Shown: positions 10,311-44,200 of the stretch, piece after piece
Layout of the letters: each line of letters opens with the position of its first letter
How positions within the stretch are numbered: the first letter of the stretch is position 1
Source of the DNA: a virus
Length of the DNA stretch: 61,221 bases
Virus record (IMG/VR): IMGVR_UViG_3300033143_005346
Span: 1 to 61,221 of that record
Direction: 5' to 3' (one strand)
Made by a program: the position numbers and the translations under genes
Notes under the pieces: model-generated
Databases searched by the model: none
What the model was told of the DNA's origin: nothing
Seen by the model: only the letters and a program-made list of their open reading frames with translations

Positions 10311-10874
10311 ATGAAAGACTATCGAGTTGAAATTACAATTAGAAATAACCGCATCATTGAATATATGAGACAGTTGGGATTCAATTCTGTTTCTGCCTTG
10401 TGTAGGGAGCACGGCATGAGCCAACCAACCGTTGGGCAGCTAATAAATTTCAGAACCCCAGCGATTATGAAAGCCGGTGGATGGAAACCCACAGCATTGA
10501 GGTTAGCCGAAGCGCTGTGTTGCGAACCCGACGATTTGTGGACAAACGCACAGCGAACAGCCGCGATAAAAAGAAACCGGATGGCTGTGACGGTTGCCGA
10601 AAGGGACCTTATTGGATTAACGGAACCGCCAAACCCTTTAAGGTTAATAGAACATAAGGAAACCAAGGGGCGTATCGATCGAGTATTAAAAACGATAGCC
10701 CCAAGGGATGAAGATGTTTTACGACTAAGATATGGGTTTAAGCCATATTATCGCAACCACACCTTTAAGGAAATTGCGGACAAGTATGGTGTTACAGTAG
10801 AAAGAATCCGCCAAATAAAAATAAGGGCAATTGGACGACTACGGCAACCAGTCCGCAAGGGTTTTATTTCTTAA
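10311..10874 (+). CDS. XRE + sigma-region-4 regulator (candidate late activator)
   Basis: 187 aa. Residues about 10-78 form an XRE/Cro-type helix-turn-helix (FNSVSALCREHGMSQPTVGQ and TALRLAEALCCEPDDLW). Residues about 125-181 match sigma70 region 4: APRDEDVLRLRYGF, then HTFKEIADKYGVTVERIRQI and KIRAIGRLRQ, where VTVERIRQIK is the -35-recognition helix pattern. Sigma region 4 binds -35 DNA and the RNA polymerase flap; linked to an HTH but without region 2, it suggests a transcription activator or co-factor rather than a full sigma factor. It is the last gene of the early operon and converges on the late operon, the usual place for a late-gene switch. Its 3' end overlaps the holin gene by 11 bp. 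The target promoter is inferred, not shown. Confidence 0.75.
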   Translation: MKDYRVEITIRNNRIIEYMRQLGFNSVSALCREHGMSQPTVGQLINFRTPAIMKAGGWKPTALRLAEALCCEPDDLWTNAQRTAAIKRNRMAVTVAERDLIGLTEPPNPLRLIEHKETKGRIDRVLKTIAPRDEDVLRLRYGFKPYYRNHTFKEIADKYGVTVERIRQIKIRAIGRLRQPVRKGFIS

Positions 10875-11451
10875 TGGCCTGAATCATCTGACCAACCAAA
10901 CCATACCCCTGGCTACCACCATTGGCAGCTGCGGCCTCAACATTCTTCTGACGGTTGCGGCCCATGGTGGCCACGCCCAAGATTGAAGCCCATAAAATCC
11001 ATATCCATTGAGGCATATTTGGGATATCTATCTTAAGGATCGGCAACCCAAAGTAGACTGCAACTACGGCCAGCGGAAACATGAAGCCATTAAAAGGTCT
11101 CCATAACCACTGCGGCCAGTGCTCAGACTGTGCTTCAGAACGCATAGTGGCGTTGACTTCTGAAATCTGATTAATTCTTTCCTGTGATTCCACTTGAGCC
11201 TTAGCCAGAACCAGCTCCTGCAGCCTGGCCTGCTGTTCCATTTGAAATTGAATTATTTTTGCAGCTGCTTGAGGGTCTGCCTTAATGGCAGCCATAACTG
11301 CCTCTGGACTTTCAGCATCTTCTGCTCCCAAAAGATTACCCACCACAGCACCAATAGCACCACCGGCTGGTCCGCCCAAAGCCGTACCCAGTAGTGGCGC
11401 ACCGATCTTTGCCACAGCCCTACCCAATGAACCCCAATCAAATTTACTCAT
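10864..11451 (-). CDS. Holin of the 3-TM gene-transfer-agent type
   Basis: 195 aa, the last gene of the late operon. A Gly/Ala-rich hydrophobic segment (about 15-42) is followed by a charged coiled-coil middle, then two strong membrane segments (about 117-138 and 147-163) around WPQWLWRPFNGFMFPLAVV. This arrangement and the conserved WRP-F motif match the GTA_holin_3TM family, which makes the inner-membrane lesion at lysis. No classical endolysin was seen next to it. The stop overlaps the convergent regulator gene, leaving no room for a terminator. Confidence 0.8.
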   Translation of the reverse strand: MSKFDWGSLGRAVAKIGAPLLGTALGGPAGGAIGAVVGNLLGAEDAESPEAVMAAIKADPQAAAKIIQFQMEQQARLQELVLAKAQVESQERINQISEVNATMRSEAQSEHWPQWLWRPFNGFMFPLAVVAVYFGLPILKIDIPNMPQWIWILWASILGVATMGRNRQKNVEAAAANGGSQGYGLVGQMIQAIKK

Positions 11452-11461
11452 AACGCCCCCC

Positions 11462-11872
11462 TTATCCGTAATGTTCTACGATGGTCAACTTAAATTGCTT
11501 GTAATTTCCCATCAGTTTCATAAACGAGTTAAAAGTTTTACCGCTATTCAACACAGCACGATTTCCTCTTAGCTTGCCAAAATGTTGAGCTGTAATGATA
11601 CAACCCATGGTGTCCGCAATGTCGTTACCGGCATGGAATAGAACGTAGTTCCTCCCTGGAACATCCATCACCTGGAAAGTGTCCGGATATTTTGGAGAGC
11701 TGTAGCGCTCACATAGATATTGCTGCGCCGGTATCGATGATACATTCTTAAGATTTAACAGGTCAGGTGGTTCCAGGGTCACACAAAAAACTTCCTTTTG
11801 CACCGACAGGATCCCAAAGGAGCCGAACTTTGCACTTTCCTCACGCCTTAATATATCAACCACAGGTAACAT
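11462..11872 (-). CDS. DUF5675-family protein beside the holin
   Basis: 136 aa. The order GSFGILSVQKEVFCVTLEPP, then SSIPAQQYLCERY, then DVPGRNYVLFHAGNDIADT with MGCI is the DUF5675 signature (a conserved His and Cys in a small beta fold). The family is often found in phage lysis or structural regions and has been suspected of acting on the envelope, but its reaction is not established. It sits between the giant virion protein (TAATG overlap) and the holin, so a role in lysis is plausible. I could not identify a separate lysozyme, amidase or transglycosylase in the window. Confidence 0.7.
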   Translation of the reverse strand: MLPVVDILRREESAKFGSFGILSVQKEVFCVTLEPPDLLNLKNVSSIPAQQYLCERYSSPKYPDTFQVMDVPGRNYVLFHAGNDIADTMGCIITAQHFGKLRGNRAVLNSGKTFNSFMKLMGNYKQFKLTIVEHYG

Positions 11873-14800
11873 TAGTCTGTCCTCCTTAAGCGTTCACGTT
11901 TAGATGGTCTGAAGGCACGCCTCAGATTATTCTTGATCGATTTGTGCGTGATAACCGGAAAAGGTTTTCCGGATCTCTGGACCAAGGTGTTGTAAGTTCG
12001 AATTTCCTCTAAGATATCCAGGTAGCGAACCTTTGAGCGTTTAACTTTAGGCTGATTATAAAAAGCCTTGATCCTGGCATAAATATCATGCCGCAATCCA
12101 GCCATGTTTTGTTCAACCTTACGCTCCTTCCACTGACGTTCACGAATCTTAGCTATCCTGGCAGGATTAAAAGAAAGACCCCTGAACATAGTTTCCGTCC
12201 AGTCCAGCTTGACGACTTCGCGTCCATAAAACAACGGAGCGTTGGAATTGGTAGTCACACCCTGGGTAGATTCACGATAAGCCTTGATCCCAGAGCCAAT
12301 AAAGTTAGGAGACATACGTTCAATCCCTTTTGCCCAGTCTCCGCGCAGGATCGACTTGCCACCGACCACCACATCAGATACCAGCGATCCTGGTGCACCA
12401 GCAAGATCTTTTAAGCTGGTAGGTATGTCGGTGATCCCAATCTCCAGAGATCCTTTCAACGATACTCCATGGCCACCCAGGCCAAAAGCACCCAGCCGGA
12501 CAATCTGTTCCATTGTTTCACCCCAGTTAGCCTCCAGCCAGTTATACATGGCTTCTTCCGGTTCGTCCGGAGCCCCTGGGAGTAAACCAAAGGCTTCCAT
12601 CATAACTTTAATCAACGGAGATGCCGCAGCACCACCAAGTATTGCTGGTGAAAGAGCCATGTAAAGTAGAGCTGTCCGATCTTTTGTTTTAAAGCCCAGG
12701 TCGTACATGGTCTGGAGATAATTATGACTGAACGTTTTGAACACATAAAACATCTGGGCCAGCCTGGCCATTGGATTGGCACCCCTGGCATAATGTGGTC
12801 GGTTTGCTTTAGAATAGACACCATGAGCCTTGTCGGAAGACTCCTTGGCTGTTTCCAACCACTGCTTATGTAAGACTTTCCTTTCGTCCGCACCGGCAGC
12901 GTCCCACGTTTTCTGATTGGCTTCACGCTGTCCAATGTAGGCTCCAGCAATCGTTGCGACACGATTTATCTGCTCAGTGACGCCGAAACCCATCATTAAG
13001 GTTTCAAGCATGGTGTCATAATTGTTGCCGATCTTAGACTTAAGCACCGACAGAGCCTCTTTATTGTACTGAGCCGTGTGCCATCCGTTATCCTCAATTT
13101 CTTCAAACAGATCATTCATCCACCCAGGCATGTTTGGATCCCTGCCAGATCTTCCGGCACGCCAGTACTCCAGGTATCCCTTCATGGATCTGGACAATAA
13201 GCCAGGAACTTTGTGCATAGGAATCTTAGCGAAGCCTCGCATGGCAGCTGGTACCGATGTGGCTAAAGCTGTAAGGTTGACCAGAGGGGCTGACACTCGA
13301 CCACCCAGATACTTCAAGACAGCAAGACCCTTAACCATTCCGATCATTCTGTCCACAGCCTCGTCGTTCCGGCCCATATCTTCCATGTAGGTTAAAGCAT
13401 CGTGAAAGGCGTTGCGCTGTTTGATTGGATCGATACGCCGATTTTTAACAAATTCCAGATAGTCTTTATAGGTAGCTTCCAGCCCGGCCCTGGTATGTTC
13501 GGCTCGATATTCCTGCCAGGAAATGTCGGTGCCAGTCATGTGCCGCAGCATGTCCAGCATCATTTTCTTCTTGGCTTCACCAGCAGCTACGCCCCTCACA
13601 TACTTAGCCATGCGCTGCACCGAATCTTCTTCATAGCCCTTCCACACCCCAGTGCCGGTAGCGTCGTTTCGCATAATCATATGTGCTCTGACACCACGAC
13701 CCTTGAAGATGTTGGCCACGCCTTCAGCCAGCTGCTGACCCATTTTCAACTGAGCCTTCTCCAGCTCTGCCATAACATCGGCAGCCACACCCTTTTTCAT
13801 CTCACCGGAAACCTGCTCCAGAGCTTTATTCATCATCTCCTGGAAAGCCACCACCTGTCCGGCTATTTTAAACACGTCCTCCGGCATCTTGTTGATCTTC
13901 TCAATGTCAACAATGTAGTTTTCGTACACTTTTCTGCTTGCTTCGGCGGCAGCAAAGCTCTTTGTCTCAAAATGTTTAAGAATCGGGTGGAACTTGTCTT
14001 CATAACCCTTCTTGGGCCTGGCATACATGCTGAATCTTCCAGGCTTGCGAATCCGTGGCATATAGTACCCACGCATTTGCCCCATCTTGGCCAGAGCCAC
14101 CTTCAGGTCTACCTCCACCCGTGCACCGTCTACCCAGGTAGCAACGCTGGGAAGGTCCAGACCTTTGGCGTTGTATCGTTTAATCAGATCGTTGAGCGCT
14201 CCACGCATGATGTTGAAGACATTGTGAGACATCTCCCGTGTACCCTGGACCCAATCCTGAGCCAGCTCGGAGTATCCCTGCTCGGCCAACTTAGCTACTT
14301 CCAGACGTGTCGCTTCTGCCCAACCATCATCATAACTATTGGCGGTACCAACAACCTTGCCCTCTGGGTCTTTTATCTCAAAGGTCTTGCCCGACGACTC
14401 CTCGATACCCTCTTTCATTTTTACCGTATAGCCATACTTATTCATATCGTTATCATCCAGATACTTATTGATGGCTCGGTATTCTTTCTTGTTTGTCTTT
14501 TGCAGCTTGCGACCGATCCGGATCCTGGACTTACCGTTCTGATCTTTCTCTATGAAGTTAAGACCCTTGTAATAATTGTCTGATCGCTGGGTGGCGTCTT
14601 CAACCATGGCACCAGCAGCCGGAACCTTGCTGAAATAATGGATGGGTGTAAACAATAGACGTTCCCATGCGGTGGTATCTTCAAACTCACCGATACCAAC
14701 TTCCTTCATTCGGGACATCCATCGGCCTATCTTGCCCCAGCCTGTCATGGCATGGTCACGCAGGGATCTACTCACATTCTCAGCAGCTGCACTGTTGCCG

Positions 14801-17800
14801 TGCTCACGCATAAATTCCTGGTCCTGGGGTGTGGCCGTGGTGTACTGTTCCACCGCTTCGATATCAACAGCGTTTTCGTCGAAGACTGTATAGTTAAAGT
14901 GGGGGGAGTCCTCAACGCCAGATAGTGTTCCGGATGGGAACTTAACCCCATCAATACCAGCCCTCAATAAAAAAAGTGAGGCTTTCTTGTTGGCCTTTTC
15001 GTATTGATCGAAACTCTGCCGGAAGGGGCCAGGTTCATCTTGCATAAGCAGTGTGTCTCCAATAAGGCCATAAGACTCTTGACCGGTAGATGGCTCATAG
15101 CCTTCGGCAAACCCCAAGGTTTCTTCAAGATCGACCAAATCATCAACCAACCAGTTTTCATCTATGGCCTGGTCAACAATTTTCTTAGCTTGGGCCTCTG
15201 CCACACTATCCCCCCACGGCAACCAATCATATTCGTTGGGGTCTTTACCCTTGTGTAGCATGACTTTGTATAGCGCCCTGGTTTTTTCTCGCTCCATTGT
15301 CATCTGACTGATAGAGTCCGGACGAATAGTTTTAAGATAATTGAGAGCATCTTGTTGGCCTTGAATCTGTCTGGTCATAAGCCCAGCTCCCTTGTCTTTA
15401 CCAGCAGCTTTCATTCTTTTATGCTCAGTTTTGTTCACCCCTATATCAATTTCATAACCTGCAATAAGGTTATCAACAATATCCTGAATGGCTGCCACCA
15501 CGCCAGCTTCACCGGTATTAAGGTAGGCTGCATGGATAGCATGGTCTTCAATATATATGTCTTCAGTTAGTGTAGCTTTAACAACAGCCATGGAGTCAGC
15601 ATGTCTTTCATCGCGGGCCTTACCCCTCATTTCCGACATAAATTGATCAGGACCATAACTGATCGATTGACCATTTTTCCAAAGCACAACTGTTCCAGTA
15701 GGTGTCTTCCAGGAAAGATTAGCCCAAGAATCACTACCCAGCCGATCAGCATATTCTTTAGCTATACTCTTTTTGTCAGAAAAATATAAACCCCACCCAA
15801 AGGCTTGCGCTCCCTCTCCAGATCCAATGAACCTGGTACGAAAACGCTTAAAGAAAGAAGGGGATCCATGATAAGCAGTAGTCTGATACTGTGGACCCAA
15901 AAACTTTCTGGCAAACGATTTTCGTTTTGGACCCTGATAGACCTTGCCGGTCTCAATATCCCTGACGATACTCTGGGGAGTGAGCTTGAACATACCGACA
16001 AACCCATCAATCAGGTCCTTGATCTTCTGGATGATCCGGTCGATAAGACCCTTTTGCTTGGCCCGATTGTTAATGGACCAGGCAACGTAGTCAGCTCTAT
16101 CTTCAGCACCACCCACATCTTTAATGTTTTTTGGTTCCCACCTGTTGTTGGCGTGCAGTTCCTGGATATGGTCTCGCAGGACATCAGACTCTTTAGACGT
16201 AATAAAGCCCACATCTTCCAACCAGTGGTACGACTCATGGGTCAAGGCCCAGTTGTCAGCCAGGTCTTTATGCAGCTCAATTTTGCCTTCAGCATATTTC
16301 CCTATGGCAGTCTCACCTTTCACCGGCACCCGCCCCATGTTCACATAGAAATTGGCATTGTCAACATCCACCGAATCCACCGACCTAATTATTAACTGTT
16401 GTCCGTTGGGCGTAGTTACGGCTACAGATCCGTCAGCATTTTTAATTACGTCGGTACCCTTAAATAAACGTTTAATGTCGTCCAAGGTAATACCCTGGTT
16501 ACGCATATAACGCTTGGCGTAGGCTTCTTTGGCCTGACGTGTAGCCATGTACTGTTCAATCGGTCCGGAGATCCGCACCGGTGTTTCACCATAGAACACC
16601 TGTCGGATGATCGATTCGTTCTTAATCGGAGCTGTCCTGTCTCGGTACTGGTCAGCCAGCTTGCTCATGCTGTTTTTCTCACCGGAGAAAGCAGCTATAA
16701 AATCTCCGGCAGAAGACAGGACAGCCTCAACTTCCAGAAGCGACAGTTGTGTGTCGGTATCTGCCTCAGCAGCTGCCTGTGCTTGTCTCAGTTTGAGCTT
16801 ATCAGAGGCTTTTTTCAGGGCTTTTTTGATTGAGGGATACTCTGCCCCTAAGACCCCAAGCTGTGTACTCAGATCGCGCCTCCGTGCCCTCTCAGCGACG
16901 CTCTGTATGGCGTCAATGAGACTCGGCGAATCAATCTTAACCACCAGGTCTGCCACATTCACGGTGGAGACACCCTTCTTGCCGATCTGTCCATAATGCA
17001 CACCGTCAATCACGATTAAAGAATCACGTTGAGCCTTCGACAGGGCTTCATGGTTATAGACTTTATAAAGTATAAAGTCTTGTCGCAACCTATCCTTAAC
17101 CATCCGGTCAAAGCGGAGCTTGGTTATCTTTGGCTCTATTTCTTTTAGGGCATCGAATAGTTCATCGGTATGGATGATGACACCGCGCTCAAAGTTTGGA
17201 TTAAGGGACGCTGCAATTTCTGGCAGCTTAACCGTCAGTGCATCACCCCAAGCCTTATGGAACAAGTCCTGTGCTTCAAGCCACATTTCACTAACATCTT
17301 CTGGAATCTCCTTTTTAATGTCTTCAAAAAACTGCACAAAACCTTTAATAGAGTGGTAGCGGTTCTGTAAATGTTTGCGCCATACCCTGTCAGCTACTTC
17401 CAGTTTTTTACCTATCGGATTAATACCAAGGACACCAGCAAAAAGTTGAAGGTCTGCCAAGTTGTATTTTTTATCCATTTCCAGAACCGGTTGATCGGTA
17501 AGCGTAAACGGCTCCAAGCTGTCCATTACGTCCAGATTGTTTACCACTCGTTCAAGCAGCTCGGCTTTGGTGCCAGTCTCATACGTTCCCACCAGCCTGG
17601 CCAAGCCGCGAAGTTCGTTGGCTGTAAATTGTTCCGGCTTCATTGTAGCAATATCCAGATCACCCGAAAGCACCTTGTCTGGCGTGGATCCCTTTGGGAT
17701 ACCCCAGTATTCATATTCGATACCCTTAGTGAGTGTCCGAAGTGCTTCTGTACGAGCTTTTTTAGCTACTGCGGCTTCGGCCCTTGTAAAATCTGCACGG

Positions 17801-20358
17801 TCAAATGAGCCGTCTCTTTTGCCAGTTTCGACAATCTCTTGTGGACTGGGGAGTTGATCGCTGCCCCCATCTCTCGCACGTTCTGTCGGACCAACTCGTC
17901 CAGGGCTGCGTCCAACCACTCGTTGATTGAATAACCTAAGCTGCCTTGGGAGTCCTTTAGCGCGGCTGGGGTAATAGAGTTTGATGTCATTGGGAGTATC
18001 TCCTGTAGGTTCGTTGATTAATGTTTGGGCGTCGAACAATTTGCCCTGCCTCATTGGTAATGGCTTATACTCAGTGAGGATCGTTTCAACAGGGACCATG
18101 ATCTCTTTCACGATCTCTTTTATTTTTTCCTTTTCGACTACACTTTCGCGGGTTAATTCTTTGTCTGGCATCTGCAAGGCAGCCTCTGCAATCTTTAAGG
18201 TCTGGGGAAACAGGTGGGCAGTTTTTTTGTGCATCGTTTCACGGGCGCTGGAAAACTTCTCGTCGTGTGCGCCTTGGAAAGCATGGGTAAATTCATGATC
18301 GATCAAACCCTTAAGATATGTGGCATAGTGTAGTGGAGACTTGGCAGCATCTTTGTCTAAAGACAGCGGATTCATACCCATTTCTCCCGAACCTGAAGCG
18401 TACTCACCTTCAACAACCCCACCATCCACCACCAAAGACAACATCGGATAGAATGTTTCAAGTTTGCCACCAGCTGCTCCGGCATACATCCTGGCAACTG
18501 CCTCAAAAGCCAGCAGATGCTTGGCATGGAACATCGAACCACCCTTGTAACCCTTAACTCCAACGTCAACCTTTAGGTTCAACTGCTCAATGGGTGTGTA
18601 GGGAATGGTTTGGTTCAGATATGGTCGGCGCAACTGCTCCTCAATGGTGAGCTTTTCAATTGGCTTCTGTGCTTCGTTCCAGATATCGGTAACGGTTTTC
18701 ACCAGATCGTTGTACCCCTTGTCCGTCTTGGTTTTTTTAACCGTGTTCTTCCACTCGCTCCGGTTTGCCAGGCTGTGCCACTTGTGATCCACAGTAGTCC
18801 GTGCAGCCGACAGTGGATCCACAGCATATTTAGCAATAATCTTTTCAGCCAGCTGCTTGCCATCCCACTTCATCTCCATGCGTGAATCGGTCAACGGATA
18901 ATAGTTTCCTCCAGGAGTTTGGCTGGTAGTAACATCGATAATCAGCACACCAGGGAAGCCATCGTTATAAATATTATTAATACCCTGGGTGAGCTTGGCT
19001 CCGGTCTGCTTGTCCACCAGGCGAATTATCATCTTGCGGTTGTACCCCTTTGGAGCTTTGGCATAATATTTCATCGACAGATCAGATTCGTCTTTGCCCT
19101 TGTTTACAACATCTTTAAACTCTTTAAATTTTTTATTAGCAAATGGATTTTTGACCTTTTTGTTGTTATAAGAAACGGAGACATTTTTGGGCAGCACGGT
19201 GGTCTCCACATAGCGCTGGGCATCATCGTCAATAATATATTTGGCAGCCTCCACACGGATAGCCGTACCCTGTCTTGGCTCCGGCAGTGTACCAACCTGG
19301 TCAGCTTCTTGCGCTCTGGCTCCATCGTGCCGGTTATCTCTTGTTTCAAGTGACCATGTAGATGATTCGTGCGGTCCCAGGATAACAGCCTTAGCAATAC
19401 CAAACCCACCAAATCGTCCAATCGTGTCCTTGCCGGTACCATGTAAAGCCAAAAATTTATCCCTGATATCGGTGTCCGACATACCAACCCCGTTATCCAC
19501 AACCTCAAAGGATGTTCTCATGGTGCCAGGGGTTTCAGCCAGTTTGGCATCATCTATCTTTCGACCCCGCACCGGATACTCCTCGTCGGTAGACTCATGG
19601 TCATCGCTTACATAGGTTTTAATATTAATTACACCCTTTTTAATCTCACCCTTTTCCAGACTTTCCAGCACAGCATCCATTGAGTTCTGTAGACCTTCAC
19701 GCACACTGACATTTCCCAAATAGGATGTGTAAGGGTACTTGCTTTTAGCCTCATTATTCCAGGCTCTGGCTACATTAACACCATAACCGGCAGACACCTT
19801 CTCAACACTATACCGGACACCAAACTGACCAGCTGGATCCGGATTGCCCATCAGAACCATGCGGGTATGGTTGGCCCCGATTAGGTTTTCCTGGATTCCT
19901 TTGATCGCACTCTCTACCTTGCTTTTATACTCTGGATCCTTGGTATACTTTTTGGTCCGACGCGCTGCAATAATGCCACCATCGACCGGAATGGGATAGG
20001 AACCATCGTAAACATCGCTCTTGGCAAAGGCTTTAGAGTCCCAAAACATTTTCTGTAGCTCGGTGATCCTGGCTTTTAGCTTGGGTAAATTGTTCCGGAC
20101 AAATTCAAAGTTAAACCACCGGCCAGGTGTGGTATCGATCTTTAGGATCTGACCTTTCATCTGGGTGTGCAACTGATCTATAACACTGTCATATTCCTTG
20201 TCCAACATGTCCAACACGTCCTGGACTGCCTGGATTTCAGCCTCGCCTTTGGCCATATCCATATCTCTATAGTCAGAAGTCAGATCTCTCAAACGCTTTG
20301 CCGTTCCAGAATCAAAGCGTTTGCCCATTTTTTTAAGACAATATGCAAGTGTCGCCAT
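11872..20358 (-). CDS. 2828-aa polyvalent virion protein: GHKL ATPase, two zincins, SAP, ART
   Basis: The largest gene in the window. Motifs in order: a coiled-coil start; a GHKL/HSP90-type ATPase at about 185-370 with N-box EGLQNSMDAV (E221, N225, D228), G1 box VVDNGVGM (D288), G2 box FGGFGIAKA (316-324) and GT at 364; a zincin HEFTH at 688-692; two SAP-like helix-extended-loop-helix segments at 911-939 and 965-993; a second zincin HESYH at 1374-1378 with AEDRADYVA (1418-1426) as a possible third-ligand helix; and an ADP-ribosyltransferase domain at about 1490-1835 with AYHGSP (H1497), GWGLYF (Y1525) and the closing NYTVFDENAVDI. The last 950 residues are helical with hydrophobic patches. 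Such mosaics are known as polyvalent proteins, thought to enter the host with phage or plasmid DNA. No catalytic residue in these motifs is obviously lost. Ejection from the particle is inferred. Confidence 0.85.
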   Translation of the reverse strand: MATLAYCLKKMGKRFDSGTAKRLRDLTSDYRDMDMAKGEAEIQAVQDVLDMLDKEYDSVIDQLHTQMKGQILKIDTTPGRWFNFEFVRNNLPKLKARITELQKMFWDSKAFAKSDVYDGSYPIPVDGGIIAARRTKKYTKDPEYKSKVESAIKGIQENLIGANHTRMVLMGNPDPAGQFGVRYSVEKVSAGYGVNVARAWNNEAKSKYPYTSYLGNVSVREGLQNSMDAVLESLEKGEIKKGVINIKTYVSDDHESTDEEYPVRGRKIDDAKLAETPGTMRTSFEVVDNGVGMSDTDIRDKFLALHGTGKDTIGRFGGFGIAKAVILGPHESSTWSLETRDNRHDGARAQEADQVGTLPEPRQGTAIRVEAAKYIIDDDAQRYVETTVLPKNVSVSYNNKKVKNPFANKKFKEFKDVVNKGKDESDLSMKYYAKAPKGYNRKMIIRLVDKQTGAKLTQGINNIYNDGFPGVLIIDVTTSQTPGGNYYPLTDSRMEMKWDGKQLAEKIIAKYAVDPLSAARTTVDHKWHSLANRSEWKNTVKKTKTDKGYNDLVKTVTDIWNEAQKPIEKLTIEEQLRRPYLNQTIPYTPIEQLNLKVDVGVKGYKGGSMFHAKHLLAFEAVARMYAGAAGGKLETFYPMLSLVVDGGVVEGEYASGSGEMGMNPLSLDKDAAKSPLHYATYLKGLIDHEFTHAFQGAHDEKFSSARETMHKKTAHLFPQTLKIAEAALQMPDKELTRESVVEKEKIKEIVKEIMVPVETILTEYKPLPMRQGKLFDAQTLINEPTGDTPNDIKLYYPSRAKGLPRQLRLFNQRVVGRSPGRVGPTERARDGGSDQLPSPQEIVETGKRDGSFDRADFTRAEAAVAKKARTEALRTLTKGIEYEYWGIPKGSTPDKVLSGDLDIATMKPEQFTANELRGLARLVGTYETGTKAELLERVVNNLDVMDSLEPFTLTDQPVLEMDKKYNLADLQLFAGVLGINPIGKKLEVADRVWRKHLQNRYHSIKGFVQFFEDIKKEIPEDVSEMWLEAQDLFHKAWGDALTVKLPEIAASLNPNFERGVIIHTDELFDALKEIEPKITKLRFDRMVKDRLRQDFILYKVYNHEALSKAQRDSLIVIDGVHYGQIGKKGVSTVNVADLVVKIDSPSLIDAIQSVAERARRRDLSTQLGVLGAEYPSIKKALKKASDKLKLRQAQAAAEADTDTQLSLLEVEAVLSSAGDFIAAFSGEKNSMSKLADQYRDRTAPIKNESIIRQVFYGETPVRISGPIEQYMATRQAKEAYAKRYMRNQGITLDDIKRLFKGTDVIKNADGSVAVTTPNGQQLIIRSVDSVDVDNANFYVNMGRVPVKGETAIGKYAEGKIELHKDLADNWALTHESYHWLEDVGFITSKESDVLRDHIQELHANNRWEPKNIKDVGGAEDRADYVAWSINNRAKQKGLIDRIIQKIKDLIDGFVGMFKLTPQSIVRDIETGKVYQGPKRKSFARKFLGPQYQTTAYHGSPSFFKRFRTRFIGSGEGAQAFGWGLYFSDKKSIAKEYADRLGSDSWANLSWKTPTGTVVLWKNGQSISYGPDQFMSEMRGKARDERHADSMAVVKATLTEDIYIEDHAIHAAYLNTGEAGVVAAIQDIVDNLIAGYEIDIGVNKTEHKRMKAAGKDKGAGLMTRQIQGQQDALNYLKTIRPDSISQMTMEREKTRALYKVMLHKGKDPNEYDWLPWGDSVAEAQAKKIVDQAIDENWLVDDLVDLEETLGFAEGYEPSTGQESYGLIGDTLLMQDEPGPFRQSFDQYEKANKKASLFLLRAGIDGVKFPSGTLSGVEDSPHFNYTVFDENAVDIEAVEQYTTATPQDQEFMREHGNSAAAENVSRSLRDHAMTGWGKIGRWMSRMKEVGIGEFEDTTAWERLLFTPIHYFSKVPAAGAMVEDATQRSDNYYKGLNFIEKDQNGKSRIRIGRKLQKTNKKEYRAINKYLDDNDMNKYGYTVKMKEGIEESSGKTFEIKDPEGKVVGTANSYDDGWAEATRLEVAKLAEQGYSELAQDWVQGTREMSHNVFNIMRGALNDLIKRYNAKGLDLPSVATWVDGARVEVDLKVALAKMGQMRGYYMPRIRKPGRFSMYARPKKGYEDKFHPILKHFETKSFAAAEASRKVYENYIVDIEKINKMPEDVFKIAGQVVAFQEMMNKALEQVSGEMKKGVAADVMAELEKAQLKMGQQLAEGVANIFKGRGVRAHMIMRNDATGTGVWKGYEEDSVQRMAKYVRGVAAGEAKKKMMLDMLRHMTGTDISWQEYRAEHTRAGLEATYKDYLEFVKNRRIDPIKQRNAFHDALTYMEDMGRNDEAVDRMIGMVKGLAVLKYLGGRVSAPLVNLTALATSVPAAMRGFAKIPMHKVPGLLSRSMKGYLEYWRAGRSGRDPNMPGWMNDLFEEIEDNGWHTAQYNKEALSVLKSKIGNNYDTMLETLMMGFGVTEQINRVATIAGAYIGQREANQKTWDAAGADERKVLHKQWLETAKESSDKAHGVYSKANRPHYARGANPMARLAQMFYVFKTFSHNYLQTMYDLGFKTKDRTALLYMALSPAILGGAAASPLIKVMMEAFGLLPGAPDEPEEAMYNWLEANWGETMEQIVRLGAFGLGGHGVSLKGSLEIGITDIPTSLKDLAGAPGSLVSDVVVGGKSILRGDWAKGIERMSPNFIGSGIKAYRESTQGVTTNSNAPLFYGREVVKLDWTETMFRGLSFNPARIAKIRERQWKERKVEQNMAGLRHDIYARIKAFYNQPKVKRSKVRYLDILEEIRTYNTLVQRSGKPFPVITHKSIKNNLRRAFRPSKRERLRRTD

Positions 20359-26028: not shown

Positions 26029-26363
26029 TATTTAATCCTCTCAAGGTCTACTTCCTGGATAAAACCCTTATTGTCACGCTGTGTAACCCTCACTCTCCAC
26101 CGCCTTGGCGGATCCATTTCTGGATATGGTGGTATGGTAATCACGGGTGCATCCATCTTGATAACCGGCGTCGGAAGGTCACGGGACAGATGTAACACAA
26201 CATTATCCAGGAGCTCCACAGCCTTTGCGTTGTTCGTGGACATCTGGCTTATAGCATCCCGTACCGTCAAAATCAACCGGTCCGATGTAACCGCAGAAAT
26301 CTTTTTGGATTTCTTGGCAACCTTACTGGAATTTTTCCCATTATCTTTTAAAAAGACTTTCAT
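26028..26363 (-). CDS. Small unknown protein after the GGDEF virion gene
   Basis: 111 aa. I chose ATG 26361-26363, which overlaps the preceding stop as ATGA and follows GGAG, over an upstream GTG. It has a Lys/Ser-rich N-terminus (KNSSKVAKKSKKISAV), a helix (LILTVRDAISQMSTNNAKAV), and a proline-rich segment leading to PRRWRVRVTQRD. It has no known domain and may be a minor virion or lysis-associated protein. Confidence 0.5.
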   Translation of the reverse strand: MKVFLKDNGKNSSKVAKKSKKISAVTSDRLILTVRDAISQMSTNNAKAVELLDNVVLHLSRDLPTPVIKMDAPVITIPPYPEMDPPRRWRVRVTQRDNKGFIQEVDLERIK

Positions 26364-29300
26364 GTCTTCAGACACTCCATTAGCTGGTAAAATTCGTTTA
26401 CATTTTCTTCCATATCAGAGAAAGCCTCGCGTGCTGGCTCCTCTGTTTCAGTCAGCTCCCCAGTCTCCGGATCTATGTATCGTACCGTAGCTGTCTCACT
26501 CATGGGCATGAAATCCATATTCTCACGAATGAATTTGGCCTTGCGCGATTTAACCGTAGGAGCTTCTTCTGGGGACGGAAGGGTCTCAGCCAGGACAACC
26601 TCTGGGGCAACAAGTTTGGGCGGTGGTGCTGGCAACTGAGGCTGCATGAGGGGCATTTCAATAACGGTTGACTTCTTTATTTTATCAACAGAATCCCTAA
26701 TCCAAATTTTTGCCTGTGCGTCAGCCTGACGATCAGTCAGGGTGGTATATTCCGGTGTGGAAATGTCGGTAGACAGCAAACCGTCAACACGTTTCTTCTG
26801 GACAGCTACCTGTTCTGGTGTTGACGCACGGCCTTTCCATGTCAATCGTTTTGTCAGGTTGTTAAGACGAGTCATAGACCCTGTGATCTGAGCGCCCAAA
26901 GATTTGAGGTTTCTTGCCCAGGGTGGCCCGCTGGGTTTTTTGCCAAAGTTTCCAAGCTGGCTGTAAATTTGGCTGAGTTTGTTTTTGGCCTTATCTTTAA
27001 GGTTCCCATCCACCAGCTCCAGGTCGTCAATCATTTCGGTTACTTCTTCCGGTGCAACCTCAATGGTCGCCGGTATAGCAACCATCGGAGTTGCGATTGC
27101 AGGTACTGGTGCAGCTCCAGCCTCAGCCATTTGCACCACCCCCAATTGCTCATTGGTCAGGTACTCCTGGGCTTGCTGGAGCGCACCAGAACTAACGGCA
27201 AAAGCCAGCGTGCTGGGTGGCATACCGATATCTTCGGCCTCGTAGGCCAATTCTTCTAAAATGAAATTCCAGGCGTTTGCTTCAGGTAGGGCTGGGCTTT
27301 TGGCCAGGCGACTGACGTGACCCGTGGTCCAGGCAATGGCATCTTCAACGGTATCTTCAGGTGTCCACTGGGCGTTGTGACCGGTAAACTCAACTCCAAC
27401 AATCTGTTCATCTATAAGTTTGCCTTGGCCAAGGTCCCTTCCCACTTTTTCATTCGCCCTGGTTTGGGAAGCCAGAAGGCCCTCGCTTTTTTGGCTCCAC
27501 CCGACTGGGAGATAATTGACTTCAACTCTTGTCCCAGGGATCCTTGCTCTGGTGGGTTTCTCTTTACCTTCCTCAGTGATGGTTGCGTATTCCGCTGGGA
27601 GTCCATCTTTGATTTTTTCGGCAGCTGATATCGCATTAGATATTGTACCTCCCGTGGCTGACGTAAAGGCCAGTCCGTTAAGCTGATAATGTATGTTATC
27701 GTCTTTTCCTAAAAAGTCGAGAACTATTTGAGATGCCGAATCTTTAATGGCAAGTCGTAAAGTTTCAAGTTCGTCCCTGCTGACAGAATCCCTGTCGATC
27801 CCACTGACTCCATATTCGTCACCACCCATACGATACAGTTTGATCCTGTTGATAATTCCGGTGGTTTCGGCTGCTTCAGTCATGGCTTGACCCATCAGCG
27901 CCAAAGCCTGGTCGCCCATAGCGTGTCCGCCAATAACCCTTTCGCCGGTCGGCAGCGTACCTTCTTTGGTCATATCGTTATAGTATTTGAGTCCGTCCAC
28001 ATCGATAGACACGAAAGGAACATCCGCACCAAATTCTTCCTTGTGTAGCTCCAGAGCATTTCTGTTTAATAAGCCGGTAAGAACATCCTCAACGGCAAAC
28101 TTTCTTGTAAACTCCAGAGCTTCGGTTCTCTCAGCCGGTGTCATTTTATCAATATCGGATGTCATTTGCCAGTTTTCACGGCGCTCTATGCCACTACGCT
28201 TGTCATCTTCAACCGGTGTTTCAGTCTGACGACGATCACCCACATCAGGCTCTCTAATCCCTTCCGGATTCTCAAAGAATTCTGCCAAGTCCGGTAGATT
28301 TTGTGCAAAATCTTCCTCCATTTGTGCAATGGAATAAACATTCGTAAGCTGATGTAATGGTTCAATATCTTCAATACCTGGTAGCGTCCTGGGTGCGTCG
28401 GAGATCCCCTGAGCACCACCGATATCATACATGGTTTTCCAATAATCGTTACGCTTAACACCTATAACATCAATTTCGTCTGACGGTGGGATCTGGATCC
28501 GGTCGGTCAGTGAGTCCAGAACCATGTTGCCAGCTCCGTCATCTTCAGACACCACGGTATATTGATCCCAGCTGTAGCCATCACCCTCAATCACCGCTTG
28601 ATCGCCCAGCTCTAAGGAATCCACATTAATGGAGGTGCCAATGATCTCATAACCGTCTGATTCAAGTTGTGCAATCTCACCGCCCAGAAATAGCTCAGGG
28701 TCAGATGCTTTCATAGCCTGGGCAATTCCCATAATGTGATCAGATATAGCTGACTGGCGTGCTGTCAGTAGCTTGCCGGTATCCAGCTTTTCGATCAGAT
28801 CAAAGAAGTCTTTTCGATTAAGACCATACTTAAATTCTTCTTTCTTTTCCTGGATCTCACGCACGGGAACCTTCTTGTCCGATTCCATGACCGTCTTACC
28901 GGCCTTATCTTTTTTAATTCGTGAGTCTCGATACCTGATAGTAAACGGTTCTTTAAACCACCCAGGATAACTGGATCCATATCCATGGGCCATACCTTCT
29001 GCAAGGTTTGGGTTTCCAGCTTCATCTATAAAGGTTACACCCTTCGGCTCGGAAACTCCAACTTGTTCGACCATCATGTCGTAAGCAGCCCGTAGATCCG
29101 GTGGGATCTGACTACGGTCAACAAAATAGGAATCAGACAGCGTGCCCAGTAAATTGACGCGCCGGTTATATTCTTCCTGTGTTAAACCGATAGGCTCTGG
29201 GCCACCAAAAGCCGGACGGTCTGGGATGCCATTGCCCCTGATGATACCAATCTGCTCCATTGCTCCTTCATTTTGATCCTGAGTTTGGACCAAGCCCAGA

Positions 29301-30694
29301 TCCTGGAGTATACGTTCTTTCTGGATGTTATCCAAATTGGGCTGGCGCGTAAAAACATCGTCACCCACTATGCGAAGCGTCCGTGCAAATTCGTCAGCAG
29401 CTTCCAGAGCTCGTTCTTTCCGGTTCTCAATTTCAACAGGATTGCCTGGTATATTTTCGGCAAGTTCAACAAACCGCTGATGGAAACTGAAATTTCTAAA
29501 GGCTTGCTGTTGTTCTGGAGTCATCATATCCAGGTGGGCCTGGGTGACAGAGGACGCCTTTCTGTTCGGCGCACGCCTGGAGATAATATCTTCGTCAGAG
29601 TAAGGCACAAAATCACCTTCATCCGCTGCGTCTACAGCCGGACCTTTGCCGCGCCTTTCTTCTTCCATCCGAAGTTGATGGTAATTTTCGTCCTCTTTCC
29701 TTTTTTTTCTGGAAGCAACCGCACCGAATGGAGCGAAAAGCAATGCCCATGGAGCTGTCAGGGTACCTTCGTACATGCCCTGTTTGGTAGTTTCCCCTAT
29801 CTCGTCCCAAAACAGTTCAGCTCGTTGGAATAATTCTTTATCCGGATTGGTAGCAAAGATATTTATAAAAGAATCAGGGTAAGCCTGTGCCCATTCTGTA
29901 AAAAACTCTGTGGACACTATCCCTCCAAGAGCTTTCATCTTCTGAAGCAACGGCATCCTTGGCTTAAACATTTTCATAGCCAAATGAAACGGTGCCATCT
30001 CAAGGGCACCCTGGATAATAGCATTACCTAAAGACCAATAATACGCTTCATCCGGTGGTGTGCCTTCCTGGATCAAATTGTCATACGTTCCACCCAGGAT
30101 CTGCATGCCCATCATTCCAAAACCAGCCCACGGCCCACCGGCTACAGATGCCAATATCATAGATCCAATCTGAGGACCTACTGATACCACGCCTTCAAAC
30201 CAGTTGTGGTTCTCAAGCCCCCTGGGATCTGCTTTAAGAAATTCGGACTCAGCCAGCATGGACAAGGCCAGCTCTTGATTTTCATCCATGGCCATAATGC
30301 CAGGGCCAAAATTAGAGATCGTGTCTGCCAAGGCTTTAACCGCTGTACTTTCCTCATAGTAAGGAACGTACTTTTTCTTCATCCGATTAAGCCATTCGGA
30401 TGTAGATAGCGCTGCAATAGCCGACGTTTGACCAACTTCTTGGGTCCCAGCCTTAAGTTTTTCTCCCAGCCGTCCATATTGCTCTTGCGTCCATGGACCA
30501 ACATTTAAGAGCTTTAACGGGTCCAGCTCAACGGGGGGATGTTTTTCAGGCCGGTCTTCATCAAAAGAATCAAAGCTCTTGTAAAAATCCTCTACTGGTC
30601 GCGGGACCTCTCCAGACGACAAGCGCGAAAACATCGGGTCGTCTTCATAAAGCCCCCTACCGGCGTATTCTAAAATATCTTCATTAATTCCCAT
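26360..30694 (-). CDS. 1444-aa virion/ejection-type protein with GGDEF domain
   Basis: Residues about 110-330 contain hydrophobic helices (GPQIGSMILASVAGGPWAGF, GNAIIQGALEMAPFHLAM), a pattern seen in large phage internal virion proteins. Residues about 865-1090 are a GGDEF domain: DVLTGLLNRNAL (870-881), the metal-binding SIDVDGLKYYND (896-907) and the signature RMGGDEYG with GGDEY at 957-961. GGDEF proteins convert two GTP to cyclic di-GMP. The essential Gly-Gly-Asp-Glu is intact, while the usual RxxD inhibitory site before it is not visible. The C-terminal 350 residues are Pro/Ala-rich linkers and helices. It follows two ejection-type genes in the same direction, so entry into the host cell is likely but inferred. 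The other regions are not recognised. Confidence 0.8.
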   Translation of the reverse strand: MGINEDILEYAGRGLYEDDPMFSRLSSGEVPRPVEDFYKSFDSFDEDRPEKHPPVELDPLKLLNVGPWTQEQYGRLGEKLKAGTQEVGQTSAIAALSTSEWLNRMKKKYVPYYEESTAVKALADTISNFGPGIMAMDENQELALSMLAESEFLKADPRGLENHNWFEGVVSVGPQIGSMILASVAGGPWAGFGMMGMQILGGTYDNLIQEGTPPDEAYYWSLGNAIIQGALEMAPFHLAMKMFKPRMPLLQKMKALGGIVSTEFFTEWAQAYPDSFINIFATNPDKELFQRAELFWDEIGETTKQGMYEGTLTAPWALLFAPFGAVASRKKRKEDENYHQLRMEEERRGKGPAVDAADEGDFVPYSDEDIISRRAPNRKASSVTQAHLDMMTPEQQQAFRNFSFHQRFVELAENIPGNPVEIENRKERALEAADEFARTLRIVGDDVFTRQPNLDNIQKERILQDLGLVQTQDQNEGAMEQIGIIRGNGIPDRPAFGGPEPIGLTQEEYNRRVNLLGTLSDSYFVDRSQIPPDLRAAYDMMVEQVGVSEPKGVTFIDEAGNPNLAEGMAHGYGSSYPGWFKEPFTIRYRDSRIKKDKAGKTVMESDKKVPVREIQEKKEEFKYGLNRKDFFDLIEKLDTGKLLTARQSAISDHIMGIAQAMKASDPELFLGGEIAQLESDGYEIIGTSINVDSLELGDQAVIEGDGYSWDQYTVVSEDDGAGNMVLDSLTDRIQIPPSDEIDVIGVKRNDYWKTMYDIGGAQGISDAPRTLPGIEDIEPLHQLTNVYSIAQMEEDFAQNLPDLAEFFENPEGIREPDVGDRRQTETPVEDDKRSGIERRENWQMTSDIDKMTPAERTEALEFTRKFAVEDVLTGLLNRNALELHKEEFGADVPFVSIDVDGLKYYNDMTKEGTLPTGERVIGGHAMGDQALALMGQAMTEAAETTGIINRIKLYRMGGDEYGVSGIDRDSVSRDELETLRLAIKDSASQIVLDFLGKDDNIHYQLNGLAFTSATGGTISNAISAAEKIKDGLPAEYATITEEGKEKPTRARIPGTRVEVNYLPVGWSQKSEGLLASQTRANEKVGRDLGQGKLIDEQIVGVEFTGHNAQWTPEDTVEDAIAWTTGHVSRLAKSPALPEANAWNFILEELAYEAEDIGMPPSTLAFAVSSGALQQAQEYLTNEQLGVVQMAEAGAAPVPAIATPMVAIPATIEVAPEEVTEMIDDLELVDGNLKDKAKNKLSQIYSQLGNFGKKPSGPPWARNLKSLGAQITGSMTRLNNLTKRLTWKGRASTPEQVAVQKKRVDGLLSTDISTPEYTTLTDRQADAQAKIWIRDSVDKIKKSTVIEMPLMQPQLPAPPPKLVAPEVVLAETLPSPEEAPTVKSRKAKFIRENMDFMPMSETATVRYIDPETGELTETEEPAREAFSDMEENVNEFYQLMECLKT

Positions 30695-41227: not shown

Positions 41228-44200
41228 TTATGCTATTTCTACTATTGTTGAATCCGGCCTAAAGTATATAGTGTCAGCGCTTAAGGCCCAACCAATTTTT
41301 TGGAGTTGATCCCCAGCAACTGCCGGAGCTGATTGTGTAAGCGCTCCGGTTGTTGCTGAAACATAAATAGGTCCATTCACCCACGTCCAGGACGTATCGC
41401 ATATTTGACCCTCTAATAAAACCACTTTTGTACCGGTACCACTCGACAAAGCCAAGGCCCTGCAAGGCATGGTTCCCGCTGCGCTGGCGTCGCATCTTTC
41501 ATAATGAAAGTCAGCAGCACAATAAAGAGCGTTGCCGAAGACAGCCGAAGCATCATCAGTCACTACAGTTAAGGTTCTCCCGCGGTAAGTAGAAGTGACT
41601 GTGAGAATGGCCTCTCCGGTATTTATGGGTTCCCAGGTTCCGCCGGTGTCCTTACTCTCCATAACCCCAGAATTATCTCTGACCCCGTATCCGGTCGATC
41701 CTAACGTAGTGTTAAAATTAAGATATCCACCGGTTCCGTAAATTGCCAGAATATGATTGTCCATCTCACCGCGTAAAAATTCATAGGATGAATTCCCAAT
41801 AACAAATTGATCGTCTGCAGTATTTGACGCAAACTCACGATCACCAAGGACAATATTCCGCGAACCGGTAGAAAGAGACCTTCCTCCGGTATATCCCAGG
41901 CAGAGATTTTCCGTGCCTGTACTGACAGTGTACCCAGCCTCATATCCGACCGCAATGTTTGATCCGCCCGTTGTTACATTATAAAGAGTTTTCGCTCCAA
42001 TTGCTACACAAACACCAGCTGTTGCTTCAGTAAAAACTCCGCGCATTGCCTGGAACCCAAAGGCACTGTTGTTGTTGCCAGTTGGGAAGGAACATGCCAA
42101 GGTCCCGAAGGCAGAATTACCGTTGCCAGAGGACAATTCCTGAAAGGCGAGAGTCCCAACGGCTGTATTTTGATAGCCATCCGTTACTAATTTGCCTACA
42201 CTGCGGCCAATCAGCACGTTGCTGTCTCCGGTTGTCATTCCATAGCCAGCTTCATTCCCAATCAGCGTATTCCAATAATAAGTAGAGGTTGTGTCTACCC
42301 CCCTGCCAGCATCATATCCTATTATAACATTTTCGCCACCAGAAGAAGCCCCAAGGAATAAAGCTGCATAATTTCCGATAATAATATTTTTGTCGGCCGA
42401 AGCACCAGTAAGGTCGTTTCCGGCACTTACACCAGCTATAAAGTTGTCTGTAGAGGTAGAAATTAAAGAAGCCCCAGCACCCGTGCCACCAACAATATTG
42501 TCGTAGGCATCTTCTGAAAAAAGACCGCTACCACCAGTAGTAAAACCAGTCCACGACCCTGAACTGTCTTTAAATTCCATGGTGCCGGTATTATCCCTGA
42601 TTCCATATCCGCCCGATCCTAACGTGGTGTTAAAATTCAAGTATCCATCAGCTCCATAAATGCTTAACTGATGATTGGCCATATCTCCACGCAAAAATGG
42701 ATAAGTAGCCGTTCCTATTCCGAATTGATTGTCGGCGGTGGCTGATAATGGCTCAAGGTCGTAGCCAAGCAGAATATTGTTGGATCCGGATGTAAGCCCA
42801 GACTCCGCCACCTTATAGCCAAGAAGCAAATTGTTTGATCCAGTCGTAAGTTGCTCCCCACATTCAGCACCCATGGCGGTATTATTATGTTTGGTATTTG
42901 AACTCGTACCCAGCAGACACCTATATCCAACAGCCACATTATTGTCACCATCTTCAACTCTACTGTTGGCCGATGCACCTATGCCGACATTGTTTACACC
43001 GGTAAATACATTTTGACCACAAGAAAATCCCACAAAGGTATTGTTGCCATTTACCTGGCCTGTTGCGCCCTGTCCAGCCACATATCCAATACATGTATTT
43101 GCAGTGCTATCTCCATATCGACCGGCCCATATACCTCCATAAAAATTGTTAGTTCCGGATGATGTTTCTCCCCCAGCAAGGGTGCCACCCATGATATTGC
43201 TGCCAGTCTCTGTAAAAATGCCGCCACCATTGGTGTCAACATAAAGTTTAACCGCCTTTTCCGTAGGAACAGCGTCGTCTGAATCGTCTCCCAAAGTCCC
43301 ATCTGTTGAAAATTCGTTTATTGAGGTTCCGTTTAATAGTGTAACTGCACTATTTGTATCAATAAGAAAAGAATTAGCACTGGCACCTGCTTCAATTTTC
43401 ATTACTATAGCGGTATTAGTATTATCATAAAATGTAAGGCTGTCATCTGTATTGCATGCAATATCCCAATATCCAACATCATTTTTTAAAGTAATGCTGG
43501 CGGTATTATTTGTTCCACCTTCGACTAAAATTGTAGCATATCCGGAGGTGTCTGATACATGTAAAAGTTCAGATGGGGTATCTGTCCCTACACCTACTTG
43601 ACCTCCGTCTTCTACAAACAGGCCAAGAGTTCCACTATCATCTTTTAAAGATAATCCACCTGAATCACGGGCACGGATTTCGTCTGTTGCAAAATATAAA
43701 CCATCGGCTTGGGTTATGTTGCCATCAGCCGCGATAGTAACCCTTTCAAGGCTGGTTGTTAAAAATACTAATGCTGCTACGTCTTGAGTAAGTATTTTAA
43801 ATTCGCCTGTTCCTCTATGGACTATATGGGATTCAGCATTTTCCCCAGTATTGTTTCTTAGTATTCTAAATCCAAAATCGCTATAAGTATCATCACCAAT
43901 TAAATCAACATGAGAATATCTATTACCACTACCAAGAGAATTGACTTTTATTGACACTCCATTTGTAGATATCATACCATCCGCATCAACACTCAAAGCA
44001 GGATCAGGACTTCCATCACTCGCCACCAACTCAGAGTGCCTATGAAGTGCATCGGCAATAGAATTATCCGTCAAAGTATCTAACTCAGGACCGGTCGCGG
44101 ATGTATCCGAATGACTTGCTATGGTATGAGAACCACCGGCATGGACGTGGAGTAAATCCGCATTGCTGCCATCTGTTAGCGTTTCAAGATCTGCCTCGGT

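Follow-up and report, generated by a model that had tools for sequence, protein, structure and literature searches.

Polyvalent proteins, as described in the main text of Iyer 2017 (PMC5512222), are very large, predicted to be injected, and combine zincins, ADP-ribosyltransferases (ARTs) and DNA-binding segments of the SAP/HEH type with a virion-type C-terminus; the zincin clades treated there are said to lack any specific relationship with known clades elsewhere, and an H-Y-D triad is described for the polyvalent ARTs. A similar C-terminus is found in the PLxRFG proteins of F116-like podophages, exemplified by gp60 of Pseudomonas phage H66, whose annotation records both a methyltransferase-like domain and a structural role confirmed by mass spectrometry, and which is encoded by the last gene before the holin and endolysin. 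Three further systems are close in part: the DNA-protein crosslink proteases of the Wss1/WLM and SPRTN types, with an HExxHx5H(D/N)E motif and a DNA-binding segment nearby; the T4 rIIA-type phage GHKL proteins, for which a counter-defence role is predicted; and the pre-ejectosome of cyanophage A4 (9k3a chain B).

The 2828-aa protein studied here is encoded in a 61,221-nt IMG/VR virus record (the window, which denotes the whole stretch of DNA analysed) and belongs to a known class: it is a tailed-phage polyvalent protein of the virion type. A GHKL ATPase, two zincins, a SAP-like segment, an ART and a tail-700-like C-terminus lie in one phage open reading frame (ORF), and the hub domains of the class, the zincin and the polyvalent-type ART, are among them. 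The initial annotation had chosen this class correctly and had called the combination very rich; richness itself is usual, as polyvalent proteins carry 2 to 15 domains according to the same main text (PMC5512222), and what is unusual is the pairing of GHKL with a WLM-like zincin. GHKL, HSP90 and HATPase are absent from that main text, and zincin 1 is WLM-like, unlike the clades described there. With H66 gp60 the protein shares a homologous C-terminus and a gene position just upstream of the lysis genes, but its cargo is GHKL-WLM plus ART, it scores 1.5 bits under the PLxRFG family cut-off and its name motif is degenerate (PMARLA). With Wss1/WLM and SPRTN it shares the protease motif and the nearby DNA-binding segment, and its putative clamp-binding peptides recall the PCNA-binding motif of SPRTN; it differs from them in that the zincin is fused to GHKL and falls under the Pfam WLM cut-off. 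Its matches to the rIIA-type proteins, which are not known to contain a zincin, are at fold level, with no sequence-level relation apparent, and its match to the A4 pre-ejectosome is that of the ART region. No description of a GHKL-zincin or of a phage WLM protein was found in the open papers searched, an incomplete set; the pairing of GHKL with zincin 1 is therefore regarded as undescribed only provisionally.

The 2828-aa reading frame and its domains

The coordinates and length of the ORF were as first annotated (11872-20358, 2828 aa), with its strand corrected to minus. A full-length relative is encoded on a contig in a Deltaproteobacteria MAG (L004), and the same relative is also encoded on a virus contig (L002). 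The relative is 82% identical to the 2828-aa protein, with dN of 0.11 against dS of 1.07 (dN/dS about 0.10), from which it follows that the frame in its entirety encodes a genuine protein held under purifying selection. The features of the locus are as follows.

11872-20358, minus: whole ORF, 2828 aa, 1 Cys; dN/dS 0.10 against the L004 relative
18679-19800, minus: GHKL ATPase and transducer region (aa 187-560), with E221..N225, DNGVGM 288-293 and GRFGGFG 314-320
18124-18636, minus: zincin 1 (aa 575-745), WLM/Wss1-like, HEFTHx5HDE at 688-700
17929-18048, minus: linker after zincin 1, two QxxLF-type motifs, QGKLF 771-775 and QLRLF 806-810
17533-17631, minus: SAP-like segment (aa 910-942), Pfam SAP E 0.037
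15937-16566, minus: zincin 2 (aa 1265-1474), HESYH 1374-1378, candidate third ligand E1419
14839-15891, minus: ADP-ribosyltransferase domain (aa 1490-1840), triad H1497-Y1525-D1827
11917-13845, minus: C-terminal PLxRFG/tail-700-like region (aa 2172-2814), NF032893 E 3.4e-28
11462-11872, minus: downstream small gene, between the 2828-aa ORF and the holin-like gene
10864-11451, minus: downstream holin-like gene, GTA_holin_3TM E 9e-9

The motifs quoted in the initial annotation were all recovered (EGLQN at 221-225, DNGVGM and GRFGGFG as listed, HEFTH from 688 and HESYH from 1374) and are kept in alignments of homologues. Shuffled versions of the protein contained a mean of 0.06 HExxH motifs, and at least two, as in the real protein, in 0.1% of cases. 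The GHKL domain and the ART were further borne out by fold searches. Most of the initial domain list holds, with one SAP-like segment rather than several; it had missed the C-terminal region of about 640 aa. A PHROG "transcriptional regulator" match at aa 132-220 was weak. The single cysteine in 2828 residues has a parallel in several of the other proteins that carry the same GHKL-zincin module (1-2 cysteines in L015, L016 and L020).

GHKL ATPase and WLM-like zincin

Alignments show conservation of the Bergerat-fold N, D (DxGxG) and G boxes, placing the ATPase domain in the GHKL superfamily. An AF2 (AlphaFold) model was of moderate confidence (mean pLDDT 62, core 70-90); its best Foldseek matches were HSP90/TRAP1 (E 2e-9), and VIA-align over model residues 115-434 (aa 194-513) returned TopoVI-B (Z 13.6, rmsd 4.5, 266 aligned) and HSP90 (Z 13.5), with TopoVI-B, HSP90 and MORC all matching the GHKL region (aa 194-517, Z 12-13.6). 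As modeled, the domain has a GHKL superfamily fold with a transducer. The earlier label "HSP90-type" is accordingly apt for the superfamily fold but not for the chaperone: membership of the HSP90 chaperone family was rejected, as the 2828-aa protein gave no HSP90-family match and the related carriers scored about 30 against 455 bits.

Zincin 1 follows, and its HE[FL]THx5H[DN]E motif, that of WLM proteases, is invariant in the six giant proteins (6/6) and the same or nearly the same in the megaplasmid proteins described below. The Pfam WLM model (PF08325) was matched by all six members under its cut-off (best E 0.0012; 18.7 bits and E 0.0019 against a gathering threshold of 26), and in the PDB the zincin 1 profile had WLM/Wss1 proteases as its top three sequence matches (E 0.07, 0.42 and 0.48). 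These lines of evidence are weak singly, but together they are persuasive for a WLM (Wss1)-like assignment.

Recurrence of the GHKL-zincin 1 module

The module formed by GHKL and zincin 1 spans aa ~187-745. A degenerate DNA search with FGGFGIAK led to five further virus contigs, and four distinct proteins (L015-L018) carry the region of aa ~86-745 or ~187-745 at 42-51% identity. These four giant proteins differ in architecture. They are listed with a stand-alone form.

L015: 4547 aa; polyvalent kinase, GHKL, LPD23, SAP, ART
L016: 3211 aa; GHKL, ART
L017, 9200-15889: 2230 aa; MuF, GHKL, zincin, then CCA-adding nucleotidyltransferase with HD domain
L018: 4248 aa; GHKL, zincin 2, LPD38
L171, 6843-8321: 492 aa; GHKL-WLM alone, on a virus contig, ending after the zincin

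In L017 the module is fused to MuF (minor capsid, SPP1 gp7-like); the L017 protein also holds a further zincin besides MuF, GHKL-WLM and the nucleotidyltransferase-HD part. A more distant carrier, L159 (3102 aa), matched over the whole module (profile E 9e-101), and in a divergent one, L020 (2504 aa), a divergent GHKL is followed by HEINH.

Stand-alone pairs were also found on plasmids by tblastn. The Pseudomonas silesiensis megaplasmid encodes a 561-aa GHKL protein that ends in the zincin HELTHIRVKDHSESF, and further pairs are present on megaplasmids of Pseudomonas sp. FeN3W, Rhizobium, Bosea and Methylorubrum; in all five proteins an HExxH zincin with a following H lies near the C-terminal end. 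As a control, 12 of 13 ordinary GHKL matches in bacterial genomes lacked HExxH, and in the thirteenth the sole HExxH was unrelated and preceded the GHKL motif. A zincin-motif scan of virus contigs yielded one new stand-alone pair (L171) and one cut fragment; the other new matches all belonged to a single, unrelated family of acidic proteins. When phage and megaplasmid proteins are aligned, the N-box, DxGxG and GGFG boxes keep their core residues, and HExTHx5HxExF is likewise retained. Neither the module nor its megaplasmid version had a tblastn match in 50,697 phage records, and profile searches of 297 and 85 bacterial genomes from the phylum and class of the relative returned, the known contig excepted, only ordinary GHKL proteins lacking a downstream zincin. 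That GHKL and zincin stay fused across such contexts argues that the two domains most likely work together.

On two Pseudomonas megaplasmids (L160, 4581-6733; L165, 7659-10287), the genes downstream of GHKL-WLM are related, with 22% and 28% identity, which suggests a conserved GHKL-WLM neighbourhood.

Linker motifs and SAP-like segment

The two QxxLF-type motifs of the linker have counterparts in the same place in L018 (QMELF and QLRLF) and L016 (QGRLF). Known beta-clamp-binding motifs include QL[S/D]LF, QLNLF (UmuC) and QLGLF (Pol II) (PMC3716654). With the strict pattern Q[LMG]x[LM]F, all five matches in 20,166 aa fell in linkers (shuffle mean 0.017, the pattern having been picked post hoc), against a background of 9 in 363,367 aa, or 0.025 per 1000 aa; only three of the six giant proteins contain strict motifs. 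The resemblance to beta-clamp-binding peptides was noticed after the fact, no linker is present in the carriers set aside as an independent sample, and we treat these putative peptides as a lead. Another clamp-like motif ends an 86-aa gene near the stand-alone pair of L171 (3036-3296, SQLELMGH). The linker is also unusually conserved relative to L004 at the nucleotide level (aa 761-840, 17839-18078, minus; identity 0.93-0.94), with 0 of 19 fourfold sites changed over aa 801-840, perhaps reflecting recent exchange at a module boundary.

Beyond the linker, the SAP match at aa 910-942 improves to E 8e-4 in the relative P0002 and lies above the cut-off in the carrier L015; it was the only SAP-like segment of the 2828-aa protein to score, and a second was not confirmed.

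ART domain and zincin 2

The ART matched ART-PolyVal (PF18760) with E 3e-6, at 28.4 bits against a gathering threshold of 31.2, a shortfall that is probably due to a long insert interrupting the domain. Viral homologues can be aligned over its full length (down to E 3e-29), the type being present in many viral contigs, and the alignment identifies H1497, Y1525 and D1827 as the H-Y-D triad. The ART model aligned best with the cyanophage A4 pre-ejectosome chain 9k3a_B (VIA-align Z 12.0); diphtheria toxin and tankyrase/PARP came next (Z 6-7). Matches of the A4 profile to HIV gp41 constructs were dismissed as noise of the coiled-coil type. The insert between the ART halves (aa 1551-1800, 14959-15708, minus) is the fastest-changing part of the protein relative to L004, with 28-64% identity compared with about 85-90% on either side.

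Zincin 2 aligns with L018 at 34% identity over 216 aa, including HESxHWLED and GG.EDRA. Fold comparisons gave matches for GHKL and ART, whereas for zincin 2 the lists searched held no structure that matched with confidence; its assignment is supported by the motif and the L018 homologue.

Virion-type C-terminus and genome neighbourhood

The C-terminal ~640 aa are homologous to the PLxRFG/tail-700 family (NF032893), although we do not file the protein as a member, its 98.5 bits standing against a curated cut-off of 100; the relative scores 93.4 bits. The C-terminus matches F116-like Pseudomonas phages by tblastn, H66 gp60 included. Ahead of the ORF, minus-strand genes encode terminase-like, portal-like (SU10_portal score just under the cut-off), internal-virion-like (phrog_511) and tail-fibre proteins, and the ORF is at the end of the late operon as the last structural gene before lysis, the position held by the gp60 gene in H66. 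Packaging is inferred from this gene position and the gp60 homology, and by that analogy the 2828-aa protein probably resides in the head and is ejected along with the DNA. The case for entry with the DNA, which the initial annotation had also proposed, is one of analogy throughout: to the gp60 C-terminus, to the pre-lysis gene position and to the pre-ejectosome protein matched by the ART.

Two other genes of the window bear mention. A tail-fibre-like protein (1966 aa, 41228-47128, minus) combines tail-spike PHROG matches with an Mtd N-terminal domain (Pfam E 3e-14), and a 1444-aa protein (26360-30694, minus) has a weak GGDEF match at aa 868-963 (E 0.005); a GGDEF-like stretch also occurs inside the polyvalent protein of the carrier L159.

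Proposed mode of action and alternatives

In the model that we favor, the PLxRFG-like region would be the virion part of the protein, and its distinctive cargo would be a single functional unit, in which a Wss1/WLM-like metalloprotease is joined to GHKL and its transducer. By binding ATP and dimerising, GHKL would gate or position the protease, the linker and SAP-like segment would recruit it to DNA and perhaps to the sliding clamp, and the DNA-tethered protease could then cleave DNA-bound or replisome-associated host or defence proteins after entry; the separate ART domain would modify host proteins. The WLM-like character of zincin 1, the SAP-like segment that follows and the clamp-like linker motifs lend indirect support to an attack on DNA-bound complexes, as had been suggested at the outset. 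Taken whole, as a packaged polyvalent protein with a GHKL-gated WLM-like protease for DNA-bound proteins plus an ART, the model is tentative, and we place it somewhat short of an even chance. A bolder proposal, which we consider doubtful, is that GHKL-WLM proteins form an undescribed family of ATP-gated metalloproteases of megaplasmids and phages acting on DNA-bound proteins, clamp-tethered via QLxLF in the phage virion proteins, and thus a prokaryotic counterpart of clamp-tethered SPRTN that is delivered with the phage genome.

The zincins could instead be maturation proteases that free parts of the protein in the head or after entry, with GHKL timing the cut, for example on cellular ATP. Self-processing is proposed for polyvalent zincins in the main text of Iyer 2017 (PMC5512222), with processed P1 DdrB as the example, and the two zincins here flank linker regions; the precedent is at least as good as that for an attack on DNA-bound complexes. 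The GHKL-zincin pair also exists without any cargo, in the five megaplasmid proteins and L171, so the protease cannot exist solely for processing a polyvalent protein, and WLM-type proteases otherwise target DNA-bound proteins (Wss1/SPRTN literature). We regard self-processing as unlikely on balance, though it is the main rival. It is less probable again that GHKL is an rIIA-like counter-defence ATPase directed at a host exclusion system, with the protease destroying the bound system. A jumbo-phage survey counts rIIA-type GHKL proteins as counter-defence factors, annotated rIIA is matched by sequence in the divergent carrier L020, and the model's strongest viral structural matches include rIIA proteins (E 2e-5 and 8e-5), but the match is one of superfamily fold, at about 11-13% identity, and HSP90, topoisomerase and MORC do equally well or better. 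Moreover, rIIA is made early in infection and is not known to be packaged.

Two further readings bear on the ATPase and on the fate of the protein. The HSP90/TRAP1 Foldseek matches and the HSP90-family model matches in carriers would suit a chaperone that helps so long a chain to unfold or refold as it is ejected, but the family scores noted above are far below the threshold and the pair is present in short stand-alone proteins, leaving this the least probable of the readings. Scarcely better placed is the reading in which the protein is made late, stays in the cytoplasm and is kept out of virions: the C-terminal homology and gene position as for H66 gp60, the MuF-module fusion of L017 and the ART match to a pre-ejectosome protein all point the other way.

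Implications

With the GHKL-zincin 1 module, the repertoire of injected phage proteins gains an ATPase-protease pair, and the module also points to a small, testable family of stand-alone proteins on megaplasmids and a phage contig that is seemingly undescribed. If the pair is indeed an ATP-gated protease for DNA-bound proteins, its stand-alone versions of 490-560 aa would suit a direct biochemical test, and phages may bring with them their own protease for removing roadblocks or defences.
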